Positions 525 through 10,377 of a DNA stretch of 42,317 nucleotides are shown here, piece after piece. The position numbers and the translations under genes were made by a program. Where the stretch lies: assembly GCA_946183175.1 (NCBI GenBank), contig CAMHBH010000002.1, positions 1-42,317 on the forward strand, in the 5' to 3' direction. Within the stretch, counting starts at the first letter, position 1. Each line of letters starts with the position of its first letter. Below the pieces are notes generated by a model. That model did no database searches, was not told where the DNA came from, and was given only the letters and a program-made list of their open reading frames with translations. The DNA comes from an uncultured Oscillibacter sp. (GTDB taxonomy: Bacteria > Bacillota > Clostridia > Oscillospirales > Oscillospiraceae).

Positions 525-1583
525 TTACAGGCTTATAACCGCCTCCACGTCGTCGCGGTCGACGGGCTTATTGTGCGCGAGCTGGTTCCGAATCCGGCGG
601 CAGAGGCGCAGGCCGCTGACTTCCGCCGACGTGAACAGGTGCACGCGCAGGTTGGCGATGATGTAGCACAGCGCGCCGATTTCGAGGTCGAAAGGCTCCG
701 TGACTTCGTCGCCGTTGGAGTTGGAAATCGGCAGGAAGCGCGAGAGTTCCAGTTTGTGCCGCTCTATGAAGTCGATACGGTAGCGCTCCATGAGGGGAAA
801 TAACAGCGCGACAGCCGCAAGCCATACTTTGCTTGTCAATTCGCTTTCGGTCTGGGGCGGAAAGTGCCTTCCGTCGGAGTCGCGCGCGGTCGCGAGGACT
901 TGCCGCGCGGTTTCGAGGGGGTCGTCGACGAGGCGCGCGCCCGTCTCCAACAGCGCCGCGCATAATTCCGGCTGGCTCCCCGCGATACTCAGCGCGAGTT
1001 CGGCCTGATAGTCGCGCAGTTGCGTGCCGGACTGCTCCGCCGCCATTTCCAGACAGAACACCCGGCAGTCGTAGCGCTCCACCTGACACGATATCAAGTC
1101 CAGATTGCCGGGCTTCATCGGGGGCCCGTCGTACTCAATCACGAATACGGCATGGGGTTCGCTGTCGGGGGCGGCGGCGTGGTACTGCGTCACGAACTCC
1201 GCCCACTTCATCAGGTCGGCCTTCTGGTGTACGCCCGTAATCCAGATGTCGTAGTCGTTCATGGCGAGGCTGCGCCGGGACGCGAGATATTCGCCGTAAG
1301 TCTGCCCGGGCCAGTAGTCGGCCTGTACGTCAATCGGGCAGAGGCTGTTCAGGATGAACTGTCCGGGGGCGGTCTTGCCGGGCCAAGAGACCCGCTTCAG
1401 GCGGCGCGCCACGCTGTAGGGGGCGCGCCGGATGTCGATTTCGCCGTAGAAGCGCTCCCGCCACGGGAAGCGTTCCGGCATGGACAGCACCGCCGAACGG
1501 TGGTCGCGGAGGTGTTCCGTGACGCTCGTCAGGAGGCGGAGAGAGTTTCCAATCTGTCCCCACCAGATGTCGTCGGGCCTCAT
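525..1583 (-). CDS. Uncharacterised 352-aa protein with C-terminal HEPN-like motif (RNQLAH), partner of the downstream-coordinate ATPase gene
   Basis: ORF with ATG overlapping the TGA of the 1.9k-aa gene (ATGA, 1583-1580); C-terminus LCRRIRNQLAHNKPVDRDDVEAVISL contains Rx4H typical of HEPN domains. Confidence 0.8.
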   Translation of the reverse strand: MRPDDIWWGQIGNSLRLLTSVTEHLRDHRSAVLSMPERFPWRERFYGEIDIRRAPYSVARRLKRVSWPGKTAPGQFILNSLCPIDVQADYWPGQTYGEYLASRRSLAMNDYDIWITGVHQKADLMKWAEFVTQYHAAAPDSEPHAVFVIEYDGPPMKPGNLDLISCQVERYDCRVFCLEMAAEQSGTQLRDYQAELALSIAGSQPELCAALLETGARLVDDPLETARQVLATARDSDGRHFPPQTESELTSKVWLAAVALLFPLMERYRIDFIERHKLELSRFLPISNSNGDEVTEPFDLEIGALCYIIANLRVHLFTSAEVSGLRLCRRIRNQLAHNKPVDRDDVEAVISL

Positions 1584-4500
1584 TCCGCGCCCTCCCCCAT
1601 GCGGGACAGCTTCTCAAAGATTTCCTCGTCGGAACCGAGCAGGTCGCGGAAGTTCTTCGACGCCAGAAGGTAGGTGTCCTGGCTGACGCTCCGGAGGATG
1701 TTCAGGTCTTGCAATTCCTGTAAGAGGGCGTCGACCTGTTCCTCGGAGAGGTCGCGGAGGGGCGCAATCTGCAAGTCCTTCGCGTGGCGGAGGATGTCCC
1801 CGGCGGTGTAGCCGCCCCGCGACGGCTCGTCGGTGTACATCCAGCCAATGAGGAGCGTCAGCGGGTAGTAGCAACTCCCCTGGTCCTGGTCGAGACGGAG
1901 CGTGATTTCAAACTTTTCGCGAATCTGCTCCATGAACTCCTTGTCGGCCATGACGCGCCGGAGGTGGTCGTCGGTGATGACGTAGGGCGGCGTGCGCTTG
2001 ACATCGTAGCCGGCGTAGTCGGGGGCGCGGAGGGACTCTATCAGCTTCTGGCAGTAGAGTTGAATCAGGCCGGGGAAGTAGTTGACGGTCGCGAGAATCT
2101 GCGAGACGGTGACGCGGCTGGGCAGGGACAGTCCCAGATAGCTCAGCGGGACGGTAAGCAGTTCCTGTGCTTCGGGGGTGCGGAAGGGCGTGATTTTCAG
2201 GGAGGAGAACTGCGTAATCACGGCGTTCCTGCCGAGGGCCACTTCGCGGTTGAAGCGGATAATATTGTGCAGTCCGGCGAGGGCGAATTTGAATCTGCCG
2301 GGGAGAACCTGCTGGATATTCTTCAGGTCGACGAGGGGCCTGTAGTTGTACTGACTGCAATCGGCGATAAAGGTATCGGCCTCGTCGAGCATGATGAGGA
2401 GGTAACGTACATCCTCATTCCGGCGGAGGTAGCGGCGGATTAAGTCACAGAGTTCGTCCCAGTCTTCGATAGCGGGGCCGTCGTCGGGGAGGATTTCCAG
2501 CTCCATGAGCTCCATAGACAACCGGCGCGCGGCGGCGGCGCAGTCGCAGTCCTTGATGTCGACGAGCACGGCGCGGCGGCCCTGATTGCCGTCGAGGTCT
2601 CCGCGGGCCTTCTTGAAGAGCGCCGACTTGCCGAGCTGACGCCCGCCGTAAATCAGGTTGACGCCGTTCGGGTCTTCGATTCGGAAAAGTTCGTCCTTGC
2701 GCCCGATGAAGATTTCGGGCGGCATGGTGTGCGACGACTCCACGACGTAGGGCTGGCAGTAGGAGAAGGGGATGCCGTCGGCCATGAGAATGCGGTTGAT
2801 GAGGTTCTCGTTGTAGTTGTTGGCGAGGTGGCAAATCAGAACGCGGTCGATGACAAGGTAGACGTTCCGGAGGCCGCTTTCGCGCTGTTTGATTTTGCGG
2901 GCGAGTACGCGCCGGTCGACGCCGCCAAGGGCGTAGTCAAGGAGGATTACTTTATTCCCGTCGAGGGCGTCGAGGGAGCGGATTTTCTCGTAGAGCCTGT
3001 CGCAGTCGTAGGAGCCGTAGAGGCAGGCGACGTACATGCCATCCCGGGCGAGGCGCGAGCCGAACGCCGCGATAGGGTGTACGGGCGCGGTCATATTGGC
3101 GGCTACGGCGTCGCGGAGGACGTGGTAAATCTCCGTGCGGGGGTCGGCGGGGAAACTGTACGCGCTGACCTGGATATTGTTCCATCCCAGGCGGTTGAGC
3201 AGTTGCGTGATACGCTCCGGGCTGGAGGGACTGCCGTTGTTGAGCCAGTTGTCAATGAGCTGTTGCGCGCCGCGCATGTCCTTGTTGCGGGCGCGGCGTC
3301 CGCCCAGAAGCGCCGACAAAGAACGGCTTGCGTCCGAAACGCGGCTGTAGACCGTCGCGTAGCTGTTCCAGAAGTCCTCCAGGTATCCGAGGGCCTCCGG
3401 CTGTTGAATATCAAGGGAGAAGTCGCCCACGCGGATACGCCGCATCCAGTCCTCCGCTACGATGAAGTTCTGGTTTGCAATCTGCTCCCGGATGGCGTCG
3501 ACGTAACCGGGGTGCTGGTCGAACTGCTCCTGATTCCCGGCGATGAGCGCGTCGAGCTGTGCGCCGAGGAGGCTTTCGTACTCCTGCGCGCTCTCGTGCA
3601 CTCTGTCCATGGCCTGCGTGAGAATGCGGTTGAAGAAACCGTAGTTCCTGCTCCGCAGACAGGCGACGTACCAGTAGCGTACTGTATCCTCTAAGGTAGA
3701 GCAGAAGTTGTCGGAGTTCATGATTTGCCCGTAGTTCATGGCCAGGGCGTAGGTTTCGAGGAAGCCCCGGAAGCGCACGCCGGCCTGTAGGCGGGCCTGC
3801 GTGACGAACTGGTCGGCGTTCTCGGGGACGGTCACGGCGTCGGCCTGTCCGGTGGCGCGGAGGTATTCGAGGATACGCGCGGCGGTGCCGTAGTTGTGGG
3901 CGGTCTTGTCGGGGCCGTAAACGCGGTCGAGGCGCGACTGCCAGTCGGTGAAGCCGTTCTCCGCGTGGGCCCGGATACGCGCCAGCACGTTGAGTTCGGG
4001 GAGGGCGCAGAACGTCGACGAAAAGTCCGGTAAGAAATCCTCGTCGAGCAGAACGGCGTCGCCCTTCAGGAACGTGACGTAGAAGAAATTCTCCTGCTCA
4101 AAGCTCCAGCGGCCTTCGAGGCGGTCGGAGAGTTCCTGCGCGGTGTGGCCCAGAATCCGGAGGCCCAGACGGTCTTCCGGGTTCGACGCCTGCGGGACGG
4201 TGTCGTGACAGTAGGCGGCGAGTTCTTCCAGTTGCCCGGACAGTCTCGGGTGCAGATTCGCGGCGGCCTTTTCGCCTTCCGGCGTGCGCCACGTCAGCCC
4301 GGCACTCCGCCCCGTCAGCGCGTACCACTGACAGACCACGTCCAGCATTTCCGTAATGTTCGAGCGGAGATTGTTCCGGCGGTCGCCCTGTAAGTCCGTG
4401 TGCTCCTTCTGTAGACGGAGACGCTTGGCGGCCTGCGTCCAGCAGTCCTCTATAAACTCGTCGATGGCGTCTGTGCTCAACTGCTTGTGGGAGAACTGCG

Positions 4501-7309
4501 GCACGCCGTTCAGGAAGCGCTCAATAAAGGTGTCGCGCTCTTCCTCTAACGCCTTCTGGTCGCGCTCCATGACGCGGCGAACCATCGTAGAGAGCCAGTT
4601 TTCTCTCGCGAACGCGATTTTTTTCGTTTCGAGCAGTCGCGCGAACCGGACGCCCTCCCGGGGCGGGGTGAGTACGAAACGGCGGTAAACCTCGTCGGCG
4701 TGGTGTACGACTTCCTCCAGCTCGTCGCGGATTCGGTTCACGTCCTGGTTGCGGTAGTCGGCGTAGATGTCCATGGCCTGTCCGGAGAGGTTGCGGAACT
4801 CTTCCAGCGTGTCACAGGCGCCTTGCAGGGCGGGGATGTCGCGTACCACGGAGATACTGTCGCGGAGGCCGCGGGCGGTGAAGTCCCAGCCGCGCCCGGA
4901 CAGGAACGACGCCCGCAGGAATGCCGCCGCCATACAGAAGTCGGTCAGACGGGGGTAGTCGGCGTCCATGTTCGTAAAGGCGCTGAGGAGGGCGGAGATG
5001 GAGTAATCCTGCGTCATGAGGGGGTCGCTGACGGCGATTCCCGCCACGCGGTACACCGGGAGCAGGGCGTCGTTGAGCGTGGAGGCGGCCTTCAGATACG
5101 CCACGGCCAGCGGCACGGCGTCGGGGCCGTCGAACTCCATCGCCTGGTCGACAATGTCCCGTTTCGACAGGCCCAGCGCGGCCCAGCCGTCGCGGTCCTG
5201 GTAGGGCACGGTCTCCATATTCTCGTCGCCGGAATCGGGCTCTTCCTCCTCCTCGTCGTCCTCGTCCTCGTCCTCTACGGCGTCCTCTTCTTCGTCGTAC
5301 TCCTCCCCGTCGCGGGGGAGTTCTTCGGGGCCTTCCTCCCCGGAATCGGCGGGGGCGCTCTCGGGGTACACCGGCCCCTCCCCGACGCGGTTCCGCTCCA
5401 CGCGGCGGCGCGTCTCCTCTAACGCCGCGTAAGAGCGCGCGAGGCGTTCGTCGTAGGGCGGCAACACCTCCGACGCAAGACGTAAATCTTCTTCCGCCTC
5501 GTCGGGCAGATTCAGCGCGCACTCCGCGCGGCACTTCCAAATCAGTATGCGCGGGTAGAAGCGGGCGTTCTGCTCGTCTCCGGCGAGTTCGTCGCTGCGG
5601 TAGAGCGCCAGCCACTCCTCGGCGCTCCGCCGCACGTCCTCCATGAGCGACAGGTCGAGCTTCTCGTAGTAACTGCGGATACAGGAGCGGATATACTGCG
5701 CCAGGAACGTCGAGCGCACTTTCGCGCTGGTGGGTCCGGCGTCGAGGGCGCGCCCCAAGTATTCCCGCGAAACCGGGAACTCGCAAAGGGAGTAGTAGAG
5801 CTGCCCGATGGCCGCGATACGCCACGGCTCCTCGGGGTAGGCGTCCTGGTGGGCGCGGTAGAAGGATTCGACTTCGTACAGGGTATCGGTCTGCCTGTCC
5901 ATGCGGAACTTTTCGAGCGCGAACTGCACGAGGTCGCCCATGGCGCTCGGGGCGTCGGGGGTCAGCGCGGCCTCCTCGCACAGGGCGATTGCCGCCCCGT
6001 ACTCCCCGCGCGCGGCGGCCTGACGCGCCCGTACAAGCGGCGAGTCCGCGCCGTGGATTTCGTAGGCCCAGCCCTCCCGGGGCACGAAACTGACCCATAT
6101 CGGTGGGCCCTCCAGGCGGTTGTTGAGATTCTCTTCCAGCCGTTGGGCGAGCGGCTTGTCGGCCTCCTGATAGGAGAAGTAGCACCGCCCGTCGGGGGCT
6201 GTAATCTCCCCGCGACGCCCGCCCCAGTCGAGTTTGCTAATCCAGCCGACGTAGCGGCGCTCCGGCGGCGCGACGACCGCCGACGGTTCCGGCACTTGCG
6301 CGACGCCCGACGCGGCTTCTTCCCCCTCCAGGACGGTGAAGCGGCGGATTTCCTGCGCGCTTTCGGTTCCGGGGAAGTAGCGGGTCAGGGTATTGAGGGC
6401 GCGTTCGGTGTCCTGAAGGCTGACGGTCTCCGGGAGGGGCTTGCTTGCCACGAGCGCGGCCAGTACGCGGCGCAAATTCTGCTGGAAGCCCAGCCCGAGG
6501 CGCTTGTCGAGCAGGCGGACGGCGGAAATGTCCTTCGCGTTCAGGGCGCTGACCGTCAGGATACTGAGCAGGTCTTCCTCGGAGGAACCTTCGGGGTGAC
6601 GGGTGTCGGGTTCGAGAATCGCCAGGGCGGCGTAGGCCCCCGCCTTGGCCCAGGTACCCTCCCGGAAGGCGCACAGGGCGGCCTCGTGGAAACAGCGCCC
6701 CACCAGGAACACGTCGGCGTAGTACAGGCCCGCGCGGGCCAGCATGGCCCCGCAGAAACAGGCCGCGTCGGTGCTCCAGGCGTCCTGCCGGGGGGCCTGC
6801 GGCTGTGTAATGAGTTGGTACGCGGCCCGCGCCGCCGCCGACATCCGCTCGCGGTCGGTACACTTCACGCCGTACTGAAATTTACTGTAGATACCGTCAA
6901 GTTTTTTGCGCTCCTTACGGGAGAGCTGTCCGAACAGGTCGCGGATTTTTCTGTCGCTGAGGGCGAGCCCCGCTACGGACACTTCGTCTCGGAGTAAGGA
7001 CGCGGTTTCGATTTGGGGTTCCGGCGCGGGGGCCGGGGCCGGGGTGTTTGACTGCGCCGGGGCCGGGGACGTTACGGACGAGACCTGCTTCCAGCCGTGA
7101 ATGATTCCGTAGCTCAAAAAGAGTTCCTGCCCGGCCCCGTCGGTGAGCATGAGCGTCCCGCCGGAAGGCGTGCCTTCCGCGTCGTACTCGGTTTCGTTCT
7201 CCGTCACAGTCGCGGAAAGTGTCTCCAGGTGCGTGACATCCCCGTAAGTGACGGATACCGTGTCCCCGCTCCGCAATTTTGAGAGCGACTTCATGATAAG
7301 TCTTGACAC
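1580..7309 (-). CDS. Giant (~1900 aa) multidomain protein: N-terminal beta/cold-shock-like segment, TPR-like helical repeats, acidic linker, C-terminal STAND/AAA-type P-loop ATPase
   Basis: Walker A GGRQLGKSAL and Walker B YLLIMLDEAD in the C-terminal third, preceded by PPEIFIGRKDEL; long alpha-helical repeats; EEYDEEEDAVEDEDEDDEEEEE linker. Start chosen at GTG 7309 because AGAGGAGG lies 7 nt upstream; ORF track extends to 7372. Confidence 0.85.
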   Translation of the reverse strand: MSRLIMKSLSKLRSGDTVSVTYGDVTHLETLSATVTENETEYDAEGTPSGGTLMLTDGAGQELFLSYGIIHGWKQVSSVTSPAPAQSNTPAPAPAPEPQIETASLLRDEVSVAGLALSDRKIRDLFGQLSRKERKKLDGIYSKFQYGVKCTDRERMSAAARAAYQLITQPQAPRQDAWSTDAACFCGAMLARAGLYYADVFLVGRCFHEAALCAFREGTWAKAGAYAALAILEPDTRHPEGSSEEDLLSILTVSALNAKDISAVRLLDKRLGLGFQQNLRRVLAALVASKPLPETVSLQDTERALNTLTRYFPGTESAQEIRRFTVLEGEEAASGVAQVPEPSAVVAPPERRYVGWISKLDWGGRRGEITAPDGRCYFSYQEADKPLAQRLEENLNNRLEGPPIWVSFVPREGWAYEIHGADSPLVRARQAAARGEYGAAIALCEEAALTPDAPSAMGDLVQFALEKFRMDRQTDTLYEVESFYRAHQDAYPEEPWRIAAIGQLYYSLCEFPVSREYLGRALDAGPTSAKVRSTFLAQYIRSCIRSYYEKLDLSLMEDVRRSAEEWLALYRSDELAGDEQNARFYPRILIWKCRAECALNLPDEAEEDLRLASEVLPPYDERLARSYAALEETRRRVERNRVGEGPVYPESAPADSGEEGPEELPRDGEEYDEEEDAVEDEDEDDEEEEEPDSGDENMETVPYQDRDGWAALGLSKRDIVDQAMEFDGPDAVPLAVAYLKAASTLNDALLPVYRVAGIAVSDPLMTQDYSISALLSAFTNMDADYPRLTDFCMAAAFLRASFLSGRGWDFTARGLRDSISVVRDIPALQGACDTLEEFRNLSGQAMDIYADYRNQDVNRIRDELEEVVHHADEVYRRFVLTPPREGVRFARLLETKKIAFARENWLSTMVRRVMERDQKALEEERDTFIERFLNGVPQFSHKQLSTDAIDEFIEDCWTQAAKRLRLQKEHTDLQGDRRNNLRSNITEMLDVVCQWYALTGRSAGLTWRTPEGEKAAANLHPRLSGQLEELAAYCHDTVPQASNPEDRLGLRILGHTAQELSDRLEGRWSFEQENFFYVTFLKGDAVLLDEDFLPDFSSTFCALPELNVLARIRAHAENGFTDWQSRLDRVYGPDKTAHNYGTAARILEYLRATGQADAVTVPENADQFVTQARLQAGVRFRGFLETYALAMNYGQIMNSDNFCSTLEDTVRYWYVACLRSRNYGFFNRILTQAMDRVHESAQEYESLLGAQLDALIAGNQEQFDQHPGYVDAIREQIANQNFIVAEDWMRRIRVGDFSLDIQQPEALGYLEDFWNSYATVYSRVSDASRSLSALLGGRRARNKDMRGAQQLIDNWLNNGSPSSPERITQLLNRLGWNNIQVSAYSFPADPRTEIYHVLRDAVAANMTAPVHPIAAFGSRLARDGMYVACLYGSYDCDRLYEKIRSLDALDGNKVILLDYALGGVDRRVLARKIKQRESGLRNVYLVIDRVLICHLANNYNENLINRILMADGIPFSYCQPYVVESSHTMPPEIFIGRKDELFRIEDPNGVNLIYGGRQLGKSALFKKARGDLDGNQGRRAVLVDIKDCDCAAAARRLSMELMELEILPDDGPAIEDWDELCDLIRRYLRRNEDVRYLLIMLDEADTFIADCSQYNYRPLVDLKNIQQVLPGRFKFALAGLHNIIRFNREVALGRNAVITQFSSLKITPFRTPEAQELLTVPLSYLGLSLPSRVTVSQILATVNYFPGLIQLYCQKLIESLRAPDYAGYDVKRTPPYVITDDHLRRVMADKEFMEQIREKFEITLRLDQDQGSCYYPLTLLIGWMYTDEPSRGGYTAGDILRHAKDLQIAPLRDLSEEQVDALLQELQDLNILRSVSQDTYLLASKNFRDLLGSDEEIFEKLSRMGEGAE

Positions 7310-7505
7310 AAAAAAGCCTCCTCTGCATGTCAAAATTTTACCGAATGGATTATACCACGGCGGCGACGGCATTTCAAGAGGTTTTTTGCGCGATTACAGT
7401 CGAATTGTATGTAAAAATGTTTGCCTGCCCCCCTCCGGGACACCGGAAAGTATGTGTAAAATTGACTGGCAAGCGTCATTTGCGCGCATTCGCGGGAAAA
7501 GGGGA

Positions 7506-7570: not shown

Positions 7571-9658
7571 ATGTCACAACGCAAACCCTACTATATCACC
7601 ACGCCGATTTACTACCCCTCCGACAAGCTCCACATCGGCCACACCTACTGCACCGTCGCCACGGACGCCCTCGCGCGCTACCAGCGCCTCAAAGGACGCG
7701 ACGTGATTTTCCTGACGGGCACCGACGAGCACGGGCAGAAAATCGAGACCAAGGCCAAAGAGGCCGGCGTGTCGCCGAAAGAATTTGTGGACGCCATCGT
7801 AGACGGCCCGCGCGGCGTGCGCGACCTCTGGCGGCTGATGAACATCTCCAACGACCGCTTCATCCGCACGACCGACGAGTACCATGTCAAGTCCGTACAG
7901 CGCATCTTCCGCCGCATGTACGAGAAGGGCGACATCTATCTCGGCTCCTACAAGGGAAAATACTGTACGCCCTGCGAATCCTTCTGGACGGAAAGTCAGC
8001 TCAAGGACGGCTGTTGCCCCGACTGCGGGCGGCCCGTCACCGACGCCGAAGAAGAGGCCTACTTCTTCCGCCTGAGCAAGTACGCCGACCGTATCCGCGA
8101 CCTGCTGGAGAATACCGACTTCTTACAGCCCCGTAGCCGCGTCAACGAGATGGTTAAGAACTTCCTCGACCCCGGCCTCGAAGACCTGTGCGTGTCGCGG
8201 ACAAGTTTCCAGTGGGGCATTCCCGTCGATTTCGACACCAAACACGTCGTCTACGTCTGGCTCGACGCCCTCACAAACTATATTACCGCCCTCGGCTACG
8301 AGAACGAACAATTCAGCGACTACGACCGCTTCTGGGCCGACGCCCAAGACGAAAGCTCCTGGCGGAGAAGCAATATCGCCGTGAACATCGTCGGCAAGGA
8401 AATCGTGCGCTTCCATTCGATTATCTGGCCCGCTATGCTGATGAGTTTGGGCGAACCTGTCCCCAAACACGTATTCGGCCACGGCTGGCTGTTGCTCGAC
8501 GGCGGCAAGATGTCGAAATCCAAGGGCAACGTCGTCGACCCGTATATTTTAGCCGAACAGTTCGGCGTAGACGCCCTGCGGTTCTTCTTACTGCGCACGT
8601 TCCCCTTCGGCGCGGACGGCAATTTCTCCAACGAACTCCTCATTCAGACCATCAATACCGACCTCGCCAACGACTTAGGCAACCTCGTTTCGCGCACGAC
8701 GGCAATGGCGGTCAAGTATTTTAACGGTACGCTTCCGGAATCCGCCGGGGCCACCGCCGACGAAATCGACCTCGCGAAACTGTCGGCGGCGGGCGGGGAA
8801 ATCACGCTCTCCGCCACCAGCGACGGCGACCCGCTCCTCTACGACGCCCAGCTCGTCGCGCTGGCGTCCGGACTGCGCAACCGCTTTGCGGCGCAAATGG
8901 ACACGTTCGCGCCCCATAACGCGCTGTCCGAAATCTTTAAGGTTATCCAGCGGGCCAATAAGTATATCGACGAGAACGCCCCGTGGGCCCTCGCGAAGGA
9001 TATGGACGCCAACGGCGCGCGCCTCGCGCATGTCCTGTACAACCTGCTGGAAACGGCGCGTATTTGCGGCGTGTTGCTGACGCCGTTCATCCCCGAATCG
9101 TGCGGGAAGCTGTTCGGGCAAATCGGCGCGCCGGAATCGGTTCGTACTTGGGACAGCGCCGCCGTGTGGGGGGCTTTACCCGTCGGCGCGACTATCTCGA
9201 AGGGCGAAAACCTCTTCCCGCGCGTGGACATGGAGAAGGCCTTAGCCGAACTCGAAGCGGCGTCGGAGGCCGCCAAAAAGGCCGCGCTCCCGCCCGTCGA
9301 ACTCGAACCGTATACGGCGGAACCCGTGGACTTTGACACGTTCTGCAAGAGCGACTTCCGGGTCGTGAAAGTCAAGGATTGTACGGCGGTCAAAAAGAGC
9401 GCGAAACTGTTGCGCTTCACCCTCGACGACGGCTCCGGTACGGACAGGCAGATTTTGTCGGGTATTCACGCATGGTACGAGCCGGAGGCGCTGATTGGCA
9501 AGACGCTTGCGGCGATTGTGAATCTCCCGCCGCGCAAGATGATGGGCCTTGAAAGTAACGGCATGCTGTTGTCCGCCGTCCACCGCGAGAACGGCGAGGA
9601 AAAGCTGAACCTTATCATTCTGGACGACGCGATTCCCGCCGGGGCCAAACTCTGCTGA
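7571..9658 (+). CDS. metG: Methionyl-tRNA synthetase with C-terminal tRNA-binding (OB) domain
   Basis: YYITTPIYYPSDKLHIGHTY (HIGH motif), GTDEHGQK, KMSKSKGN (KMSKS), C-terminal DFRVVKVKDCTAVKKSAKLLRFTLDDG...RQILSGI. Confidence 0.97.
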   Translation: MSQRKPYYITTPIYYPSDKLHIGHTYCTVATDALARYQRLKGRDVIFLTGTDEHGQKIETKAKEAGVSPKEFVDAIVDGPRGVRDLWRLMNISNDRFIRTTDEYHVKSVQRIFRRMYEKGDIYLGSYKGKYCTPCESFWTESQLKDGCCPDCGRPVTDAEEEAYFFRLSKYADRIRDLLENTDFLQPRSRVNEMVKNFLDPGLEDLCVSRTSFQWGIPVDFDTKHVVYVWLDALTNYITALGYENEQFSDYDRFWADAQDESSWRRSNIAVNIVGKEIVRFHSIIWPAMLMSLGEPVPKHVFGHGWLLLDGGKMSKSKGNVVDPYILAEQFGVDALRFFLLRTFPFGADGNFSNELLIQTINTDLANDLGNLVSRTTAMAVKYFNGTLPESAGATADEIDLAKLSAAGGEITLSATSDGDPLLYDAQLVALASGLRNRFAAQMDTFAPHNALSEIFKVIQRANKYIDENAPWALAKDMDANGARLAHVLYNLLETARICGVLLTPFIPESCGKLFGQIGAPESVRTWDSAAVWGALPVGATISKGENLFPRVDMEKALAELEAASEAAKKAALPPVELEPYTAEPVDFDTFCKSDFRVVKVKDCTAVKKSAKLLRFTLDDGSGTDRQILSGIHAWYEPEALIGKTLAAIVNLPPRKMMGLESNGMLLSAVHRENGEEKLNLIILDDAIPAGAKLC

Positions 9659-9720
9659 CACCTGTCGGGCGGGGACGCCGCGCGCGTCTCCGCCGGAATC
9701 CGTAAGAATCGAGGTGCGTT

Positions 9721-10377
9721 ATGAGACTGCAAAGCGCGATATTCGACATGGACGGTACGCTACTGGACAGTATGCCGATGTGGCGGAACCTCTTGAATGA
9801 CTTCCTTCACTCGCAGGGGCGTATGGCCAAGGGGAACTTGTGGGAGGAAATCCGCCCCCTGACATTAGAGGATACCGCCGTTTATTTCCGGGAAGTCTAC
9901 AAGCTCCGGCAGTCCGAGGAGGAAATCGTGTCGATGATTAACGCGCGGATTGCCGAGTTTTACGAAAAGGAAGTCCGGGCGAAACCGGGCGTGGAGGAGT
10001 TCCTGTCCATGCTGAAAATGGAGGGCGTGTGGATGTACGTCGCGACGGGCACCGACAGGCCGTTCGCCGAGGCGGGGCTGAAGTGCGCCGGGATTGACGG
10101 CTATTTCCGGGGTCTGCTGACGTGTCAGGAATCGGGGGCCGGCAAGGACAAGAGCGCCGATATCTTTGAGCGGGCGATGGTTCGCCTGCGCTCCAATAAG
10201 AAGGACACGATTATTTTCGAGGATTCGCTTCCGGCGATTCGCGTCGCGAAGGCGGCGGGATTCCGCGTGGCGGGCGTCTACGACGCCGACTGCCCCGGCG
10301 ACCAGGACGAAATCCGCGCCCTGTCCGACTACTACATCCGCTCTTTCGAGGAACTCTTCACCGCGACCCCCGTCTGA
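9721..10377 (+). CDS. HAD family phosphatase (beta-phosphoglucomutase-like)
   Basis: FDMDGTLLDSMPMW motif I, ATGTD motif II, IIFEDSLPAIRVAKAAGF motif IV. Confidence 0.9.
   Translation: MRLQSAIFDMDGTLLDSMPMWRNLLNDFLHSQGRMAKGNLWEEIRPLTLEDTAVYFREVYKLRQSEEEIVSMINARIAEFYEKEVRAKPGVEEFLSMLKMEGVWMYVATGTDRPFAEAGLKCAGIDGYFRGLLTCQESGAGKDKSADIFERAMVRLRSNKKDTIIFEDSLPAIRVAKAAGFRVAGVYDADCPGDQDEIRALSDYYIRSFEELFTATPV

Follow-up and report, generated by a model that had tools for sequence, protein, structure and literature searches.

The window, that is, the whole stretch of 42,317 nucleotides that was analysed, belongs to an Oscillibacter-like rumen bacterium and carries a two-gene operon at positions 525–7309 of its minus strand. 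The initial annotation had described two minus-strand genes joined by an ATGA start/stop overlap, and both open reading frames are present (1580–7372 and 525–1583, minus strand), the end of gene 1 overlapping the start of gene 2 in the ATGA at 1583–1580. The features of the operon are listed below from 5' to 3', with gene 1 residues numbered along the 1930-aa frame that occupies 1580–7372 (minus strand, read from ATG 7372).

7349–7377, minus: promoter-like site TTGAAA-17-TATAAT with a TG before the -10 element, 11/12 matches
7317–7324, minus: ribosome-binding site AGAGGAGG, 7 nt 5' of GTG 7309, read directly
1580–7309, minus: gene 1, giant STAND-type ATPase, 1909 aa from GTG 7309
7088–7294, minus: N-terminal beta-rich segment (residues 27–95), predicted SH3/OB-like fold by eye, fast evolving
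6038–6262, minus: OB/cold-shock-like segment (residues 371–445), by motif pattern only
5909–6034, minus: weak TPR-like match (residues 447–488), TPR_19 E=0.0065 and TPR_14 E=0.019, below Pfam cut-offs
5198–5452, minus: acidic low-complexity linker (residues 641–725), from sequence, 19–65% identity among relatives
2738–3082, minus: conserved, unclassified alpha/beta domain (residues 1431–1545), directly N-terminal to the ATPase
2624–2647, minus: Walker A GGRQLGKS (residues 1576–1583); G147, R148, L150, G151 and K152 invariant in ATPase profile A2
2375–2401, minus: Walker B LLIMLDEAD (residues 1658–1666); D233 and E234 invariant in profile A2
1589–1876, minus: winged-helix-like segment (residues 1833–1928), helix-helix-helix-strand-strand with pLDDT ~64–85 in an otherwise poor, low-confidence AF2 model of the ATPase
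525–1583, minus: gene 2, HEPN-domain protein, 352 aa
528–866, minus: Swt1-like HEPN domain (residues 240–352), by hhalign; mostly helical in AF2, pLDDT ~71–86
573–590, minus: Rx4H motif RNQLAH (residues 332–337), presumed active site
487–513, minus: terminator-like hairpin 3' of gene 2, 12 pairs, weak T tract

ATG 7372 was rejected as the start of gene 1, since it falls within the promoter-like site at 7377–7349; as, in addition, GTG 7309 is preceded by a ribosome-binding site, the latter is the better start, which agrees with the limit at 7309 and the length of about 1900 residues initially proposed. About one promoter-like site of such quality is expected by chance in the region, and the argument for this one lies in its position, not in the count; likewise, the overall number of terminator-like sites across the region is at chance level. 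No Rfam family matches within the window. Coding constraint is clear in both genes, third-position changes being dominant when the window is compared with the related locus L001 (changes by codon position 32/21/114 for the HEPN gene and 24/7/161 for the ATPase gene). The operon is flanked by housekeeping genes, namely a ccsB-like gene and metG. The ccsB-like (cytochrome c biogenesis) open frame, recognized by eye only at 2–482 of the plus strand, converges on the hairpin at 487–513.

Judged by its motifs, the C-terminal part of gene 1 is a STAND-type ATPase. The FxGR, GGRxLGK, DE and GLHN-type sensor 1 motifs are invariant in an alignment of 14 divergent homologues, among them the two ATPase motifs that had been quoted at the outset. 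AAA_22 scores above the Pfam cut-off in ATPase homologues, with E down to 1e-9, and among PDB sequences the ATPase profile matches the STAND protein PH0952 best (E 1.9e-4), over no more than the 38 residues of the GR...P-loop stretch. The position of the GxP motif reads NYxP in this ATPase; relatives outside the clostridial group carry at their C terminus a second, Walker-less ATPase copy (Prob 80%), and this degenerate copy has GGWP. The N-terminal half of gene 1 presents a different picture, with 18–35% identity to the related locus L031 (29% in the beta-rich segment) versus 66–68% in the ATPase. Diversifying pressure on a sensor would be expected to lower conservation in this way, but a non-catalytic scaffold that drifts faster would give the same picture. 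A Pfam scan of gene 1 for a cold-shock or OB domain gave no match, and the TPR-like repeats of the initial annotation are weakly supported, by the two sub-threshold matches listed above. No match to the ATPase was found in a phage sequence collection.

As far as profile comparison can tell, the C-terminal domain of gene 2 is a Swt1-like HEPN domain. In a profile–profile comparison (hhalign) with Pfam HEPN_Swt1 members, this part reaches Prob 88% (E 2.9e-6), compared with Prob 0.1% for the two controls, a reversed alignment and the N-terminal half of gene 2, so that the HEPN assignment made initially holds. Single-sequence Pfam searches yield a sub-threshold HEPN_Swt1 match located at the motif of the window protein and sub-threshold matches in 6 of the 24 aligned members (best E 0.01); most of the weak matches over this set are to HEPN families (HEPN_Swt1 6, pEK499_p136 2, HepT 1). 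Of the aligned columns, R332, N333 and H337 alone are invariant across the 24 homologues, which come from several phyla and all carry RNx[LIVM][AS]H; the partner at locus L139 keeps the R and the H as RRGMAH. In the structural check envisaged in the initial annotation, residues ~173–352 are modelled by AF2 as mostly helical (pLDDT 67–93), the first ~170 residues are poorly modelled, and Foldseek returned no significant match for the whole gene 2 model. A PDB profile search for the HEPN part likewise gave nothing. The N-terminal ~170 residues are unclassified; an inactive STAND domain like BrxB was considered for them and rejected, given hhalign probabilities of 0.7% versus BrxB, 1.2% versus the second STAND copy and 0.1% versus ATPase profile A2.

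The ATPase and HEPN genes form a conserved, co-evolving unit across phyla. A HEPN gene lies directly downstream of the ATPase gene in 30 of the 36 ATPase loci examined, and the pair is thus not a chance arrangement; the co-occurrence on which the initial annotation had staked its reading is therefore present. The paired loci are the window, L001–L006, L031–L035 and L049–L058, together with the plasmid loci L025, L026, L028–L030, L137, L139 and L142. Seven related Oscillibacter loci were found, and all six of those uncut by a contig end have the HEPN gene right after the ATPase; the further loci, in other phyla, stem from searches of the order, class, phylum and plasmids. The distance matrices of the ATPase and its partner correlate at r=0.93 (n=23 loci), with none of 10,000 permutations as high, and at r=0.89, again with 0/10,000 permutations, once the four closest loci of the close clade are left out. 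A HEPN gene is absent from six ATPase loci (L027, L138, L140, L143, L141 and L136): in L141 a transposase-like ORF, recognized by eye, takes its place, and in L136 the ATPase gene is broken. Genes are interrupted in L033 and L054. At L138, L140 and L143, the HEPN position is held by other proteins of ~900 aa in which no domain was identified, those of L140 and L143 being alike.

The distribution is patchy: the first search for relatives found the pair in 4 of 99 genomes, and within the order 11 of 394 have it. It is scattered over several phyla in differing contexts, is lacking in most congeners and in most of the genera searched, and is in many cases plasmid-borne. In the window's own clade metG remains the neighbour of the pair, which therefore looks stably inherited there. 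Among the 30 metG loci listed for the genus, some of which are cut at contig ends, only three (G000, G018 and G1212) have metG flanked by the ATPase gene.

The pair is often found in the company of defence genes. The proteins flanking 19 loci match 135 PADLOC families at E<=1e-8, compared with 5 families for 92 proteins taken from other stretches of eight of these genomes. Defence-gene neighbours are thus enriched over the control regions, the check that the initial annotation had proposed, although the comparison is rough, as plasmids are unmatched and one helicase can match many models. These matches include Druantia DruH3 and DruE, type IIG restriction–modification, AbiEi and Cas models. 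On a Methylocystis plasmid (L029, 9491–12958, plus strand), the genes directly downstream of the pair encode a Druantia type III DruH homologue, which matches DruH3 at E~0, and a DEAD/DEAH helicase. On a Salinibacter plasmid (L025, 16089–21254, plus strand), a DUF4011/MTES_1575/DUF3320 protein beside the pair matches the PADLOC candidate PDC-S37. Other neighbours comprise a DruE-like protein (L058), a methyltransferase (L028) and HerA (L056).

Domain searches further show that relatives exchange their N-terminal modules and, in fewer cases, their partners. In locus L027 (4264–11469, plus strand), on a plasmid of the cyanobacterium Brasilonema, sigma-70 regions 1.2, 2, 3 and 4 are fused in frame before the STAND ATPase, and a PLD+SNF2 helicase gene follows the ATPase instead of a HEPN gene. 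Three alphaproteobacterial plasmid loci, from Microvirga (L030), Azospirillum (L139) and Bradyrhizobium (L142), carry pPIWI_RE_X and MID_pPIWI_RE N-terminal to the ATPase in a single frame of >3100 aa, with the HEPN gene following it; for the Microvirga fusion, Pfam also shows RNaseH_pPIWI_RE (E 1.2e-23). Pfam detects no pPIWI-RE module in the window proteins. The Microvirga HEPN partner (8178–9797, plus strand) bears an extra C-terminal AAA_33 (polynucleotide-kinase-like) domain.

When the fast-evolving N terminus, the conserved ATPase, the invariant Rx4H motif and the tight linkage are taken together, the simplest reading is that of a sensor, a STAND switch and a separately encoded HEPN RNase, and the pair is probably a modular two-gene system directed against invaders, most plausibly phages, with a variable sensor, a STAND switch and a HEPN RNase effector. 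Sensing of an invader-derived cue would fall to the N-terminal half of the gene 1 protein, which evolves fast. The STAND ATPase would serve as the switch, with a closed, ADP-bound resting form that becomes ATP-bound and assembles once triggered, and the assembled ATPase may then recruit or pair the HEPN proteins. The Rx4H site, presumably formed in the HEPN dimer, would cleave RNA and thereby drive the infected cell into dormancy or death. Several points run against this explanation, namely the weakness of both AF2 models outside the HEPN half, the null Foldseek result, the housekeeping flanks of the window, the seemingly stable inheritance beside metG in its clade, the six HEPN-less loci and the roughness of the control for defence neighbours.

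The same observations have to be weighed against other readings. The HEPN protein might be an RNA- or protein-binding adaptor and not an RNase, with the response left to the ATPase of gene 1 or to some host factor. In favour of this, inactive members are known among Swt1-type HEPN domains (PMC3710099), the gene 2 partner has a long unclassified N-terminal half and the Microvirga HEPN protein is joined to a kinase-like domain; the adaptor reading is nevertheless unlikely, for the R and the H are kept in every aligned partner despite ~20% identity elsewhere, as catalysis predicts. It also seems improbable that the pair constitutes a toxin–antitoxin or stress module, in which the ATPase would restrain a HEPN toxin and free it under general stress without phage sensing: known antitoxins bear little resemblance to a partner of 1900 aa whose N-terminal modules vary, the neighbours are restriction and Druantia-type genes, and the fusion to pPIWI-RE suggests that the cue is invader nucleic acid, whereas the overlapping two-gene operon, the frequency of HEPN toxins in toxin–antitoxin loci and the many plasmid-borne homologues would suit such a module. 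The fixed place by metG in the window's own clade, finally, could speak for a lineage-specific housekeeping or RNA-metabolism regulator that lies near defence genes by accident, but a gene pair missing from most congeners and most genera searched, scattered over phyla in varied contexts and with its N terminus swapped wholesale makes this very improbable.

The preferred reading, a sensor–switch–RNase system, has relatives among known defence proteins. Avs and bNACHT proteins are single chains in effector–STAND–sensor order, in which a STAND switch is coupled to a nuclease effector. The window pair has in common with them the switch and the (here predicted) nuclease effector, but it consists of two chains and has no PADLOC match. 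In keeping with the initial annotation, which could not assign the pair to a named system, nothing named or housekeeping matches it: the PADLOC 2023 models give no match to the window pair at E<=1 and weak matches only to its relatives, and neither protein is named by any NCBIfam or above-threshold Pfam family. A literature search for the ATPase/HEPN pair, with preprints and subscription papers outside its scope, retrieved no matching system. HEPN nuclease domains also occur in at least four of the validated systems that DefensePredictor reports (PMC13092281); the novelty of the pair is judged here against the PADLOC, NCBIfam and Pfam families and the literature searched.

The nearest printed precedent, compared by description, is the class of single-chain HEPN (Abi2/Swt1 class)-STAND-TPR-S1 proteins predicted to act in conflict in the 2013 HEPN survey (Npun_F6454, MED222_16016 and Desac_1927; PMC3710099, Table 1). 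The likeness extends to the Swt1-class HEPN domain, the STAND ATPase and the TPR/OB-type modules; the precedent is a single chain, whereas the window has two overlapping genes, the first of which carries its ATPase C-terminally, and relatives swap their sensor modules. The term "undescribed", as used initially, thus applies to the two-gene layout with swappable sensor modules, as far as the searched libraries show, and not to the kind of system itself. PH0952 (PMC6468293) resembles gene 1 in the profile match mentioned above and in a putative C-terminal winged-helix-like segment, but STANDs of its type place the sensor after the ATPase core, while the window protein has its long variable part before the ATPase. 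DUF499 (BREX-related/Hma) ATPases with an N-terminal HEPN domain (PMC12839542) likewise combine a large AAA/STAND-ORC ATPase with Swt1-class HEPN in defence loci; in contrast to these, the window proteins match neither DUF499 (Pfam) nor BrxC nor BrxB (hhalign Prob 0.9% for the ATPase), the dedicated methyltransferase/helicase trio is missing and the HEPN domain is a separate gene. The pPIWI-RE systems have been described in standalone and REase/DinG-triad forms only (PMC3702460), and the ATPase–HEPN pair with which the module is associated in the three alphaproteobacterial relatives is not among them.

Whether these loci represent a broadly distributed, undescribed immune class, with one STAND-ATPase/HEPN core joined to varied sensors (OB/TPR-like, sigma-70, Argonaute-like pPIWI-RE) and sometimes to varied partners, is a question on which our judgement is evenly divided. 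If they do and work as proposed, the ATPase switch and the RNase effector would make up a recurrent immune core that is retained as sensors are exchanged, and what each sensor detects could be asked directly; the pPIWI-RE relatives would then suggest that an RNase can be triggered under nucleic-acid guidance by way of a STAND hub. ATPase profile A2 and HEPN-partner profile A6 provide concrete families with which uncatalogued defence loci can be sought. Among the pPIWI-RE relatives, those of Azospirillum and Bradyrhizobium possess a further large gene of ~1130 aa that overlaps upstream.
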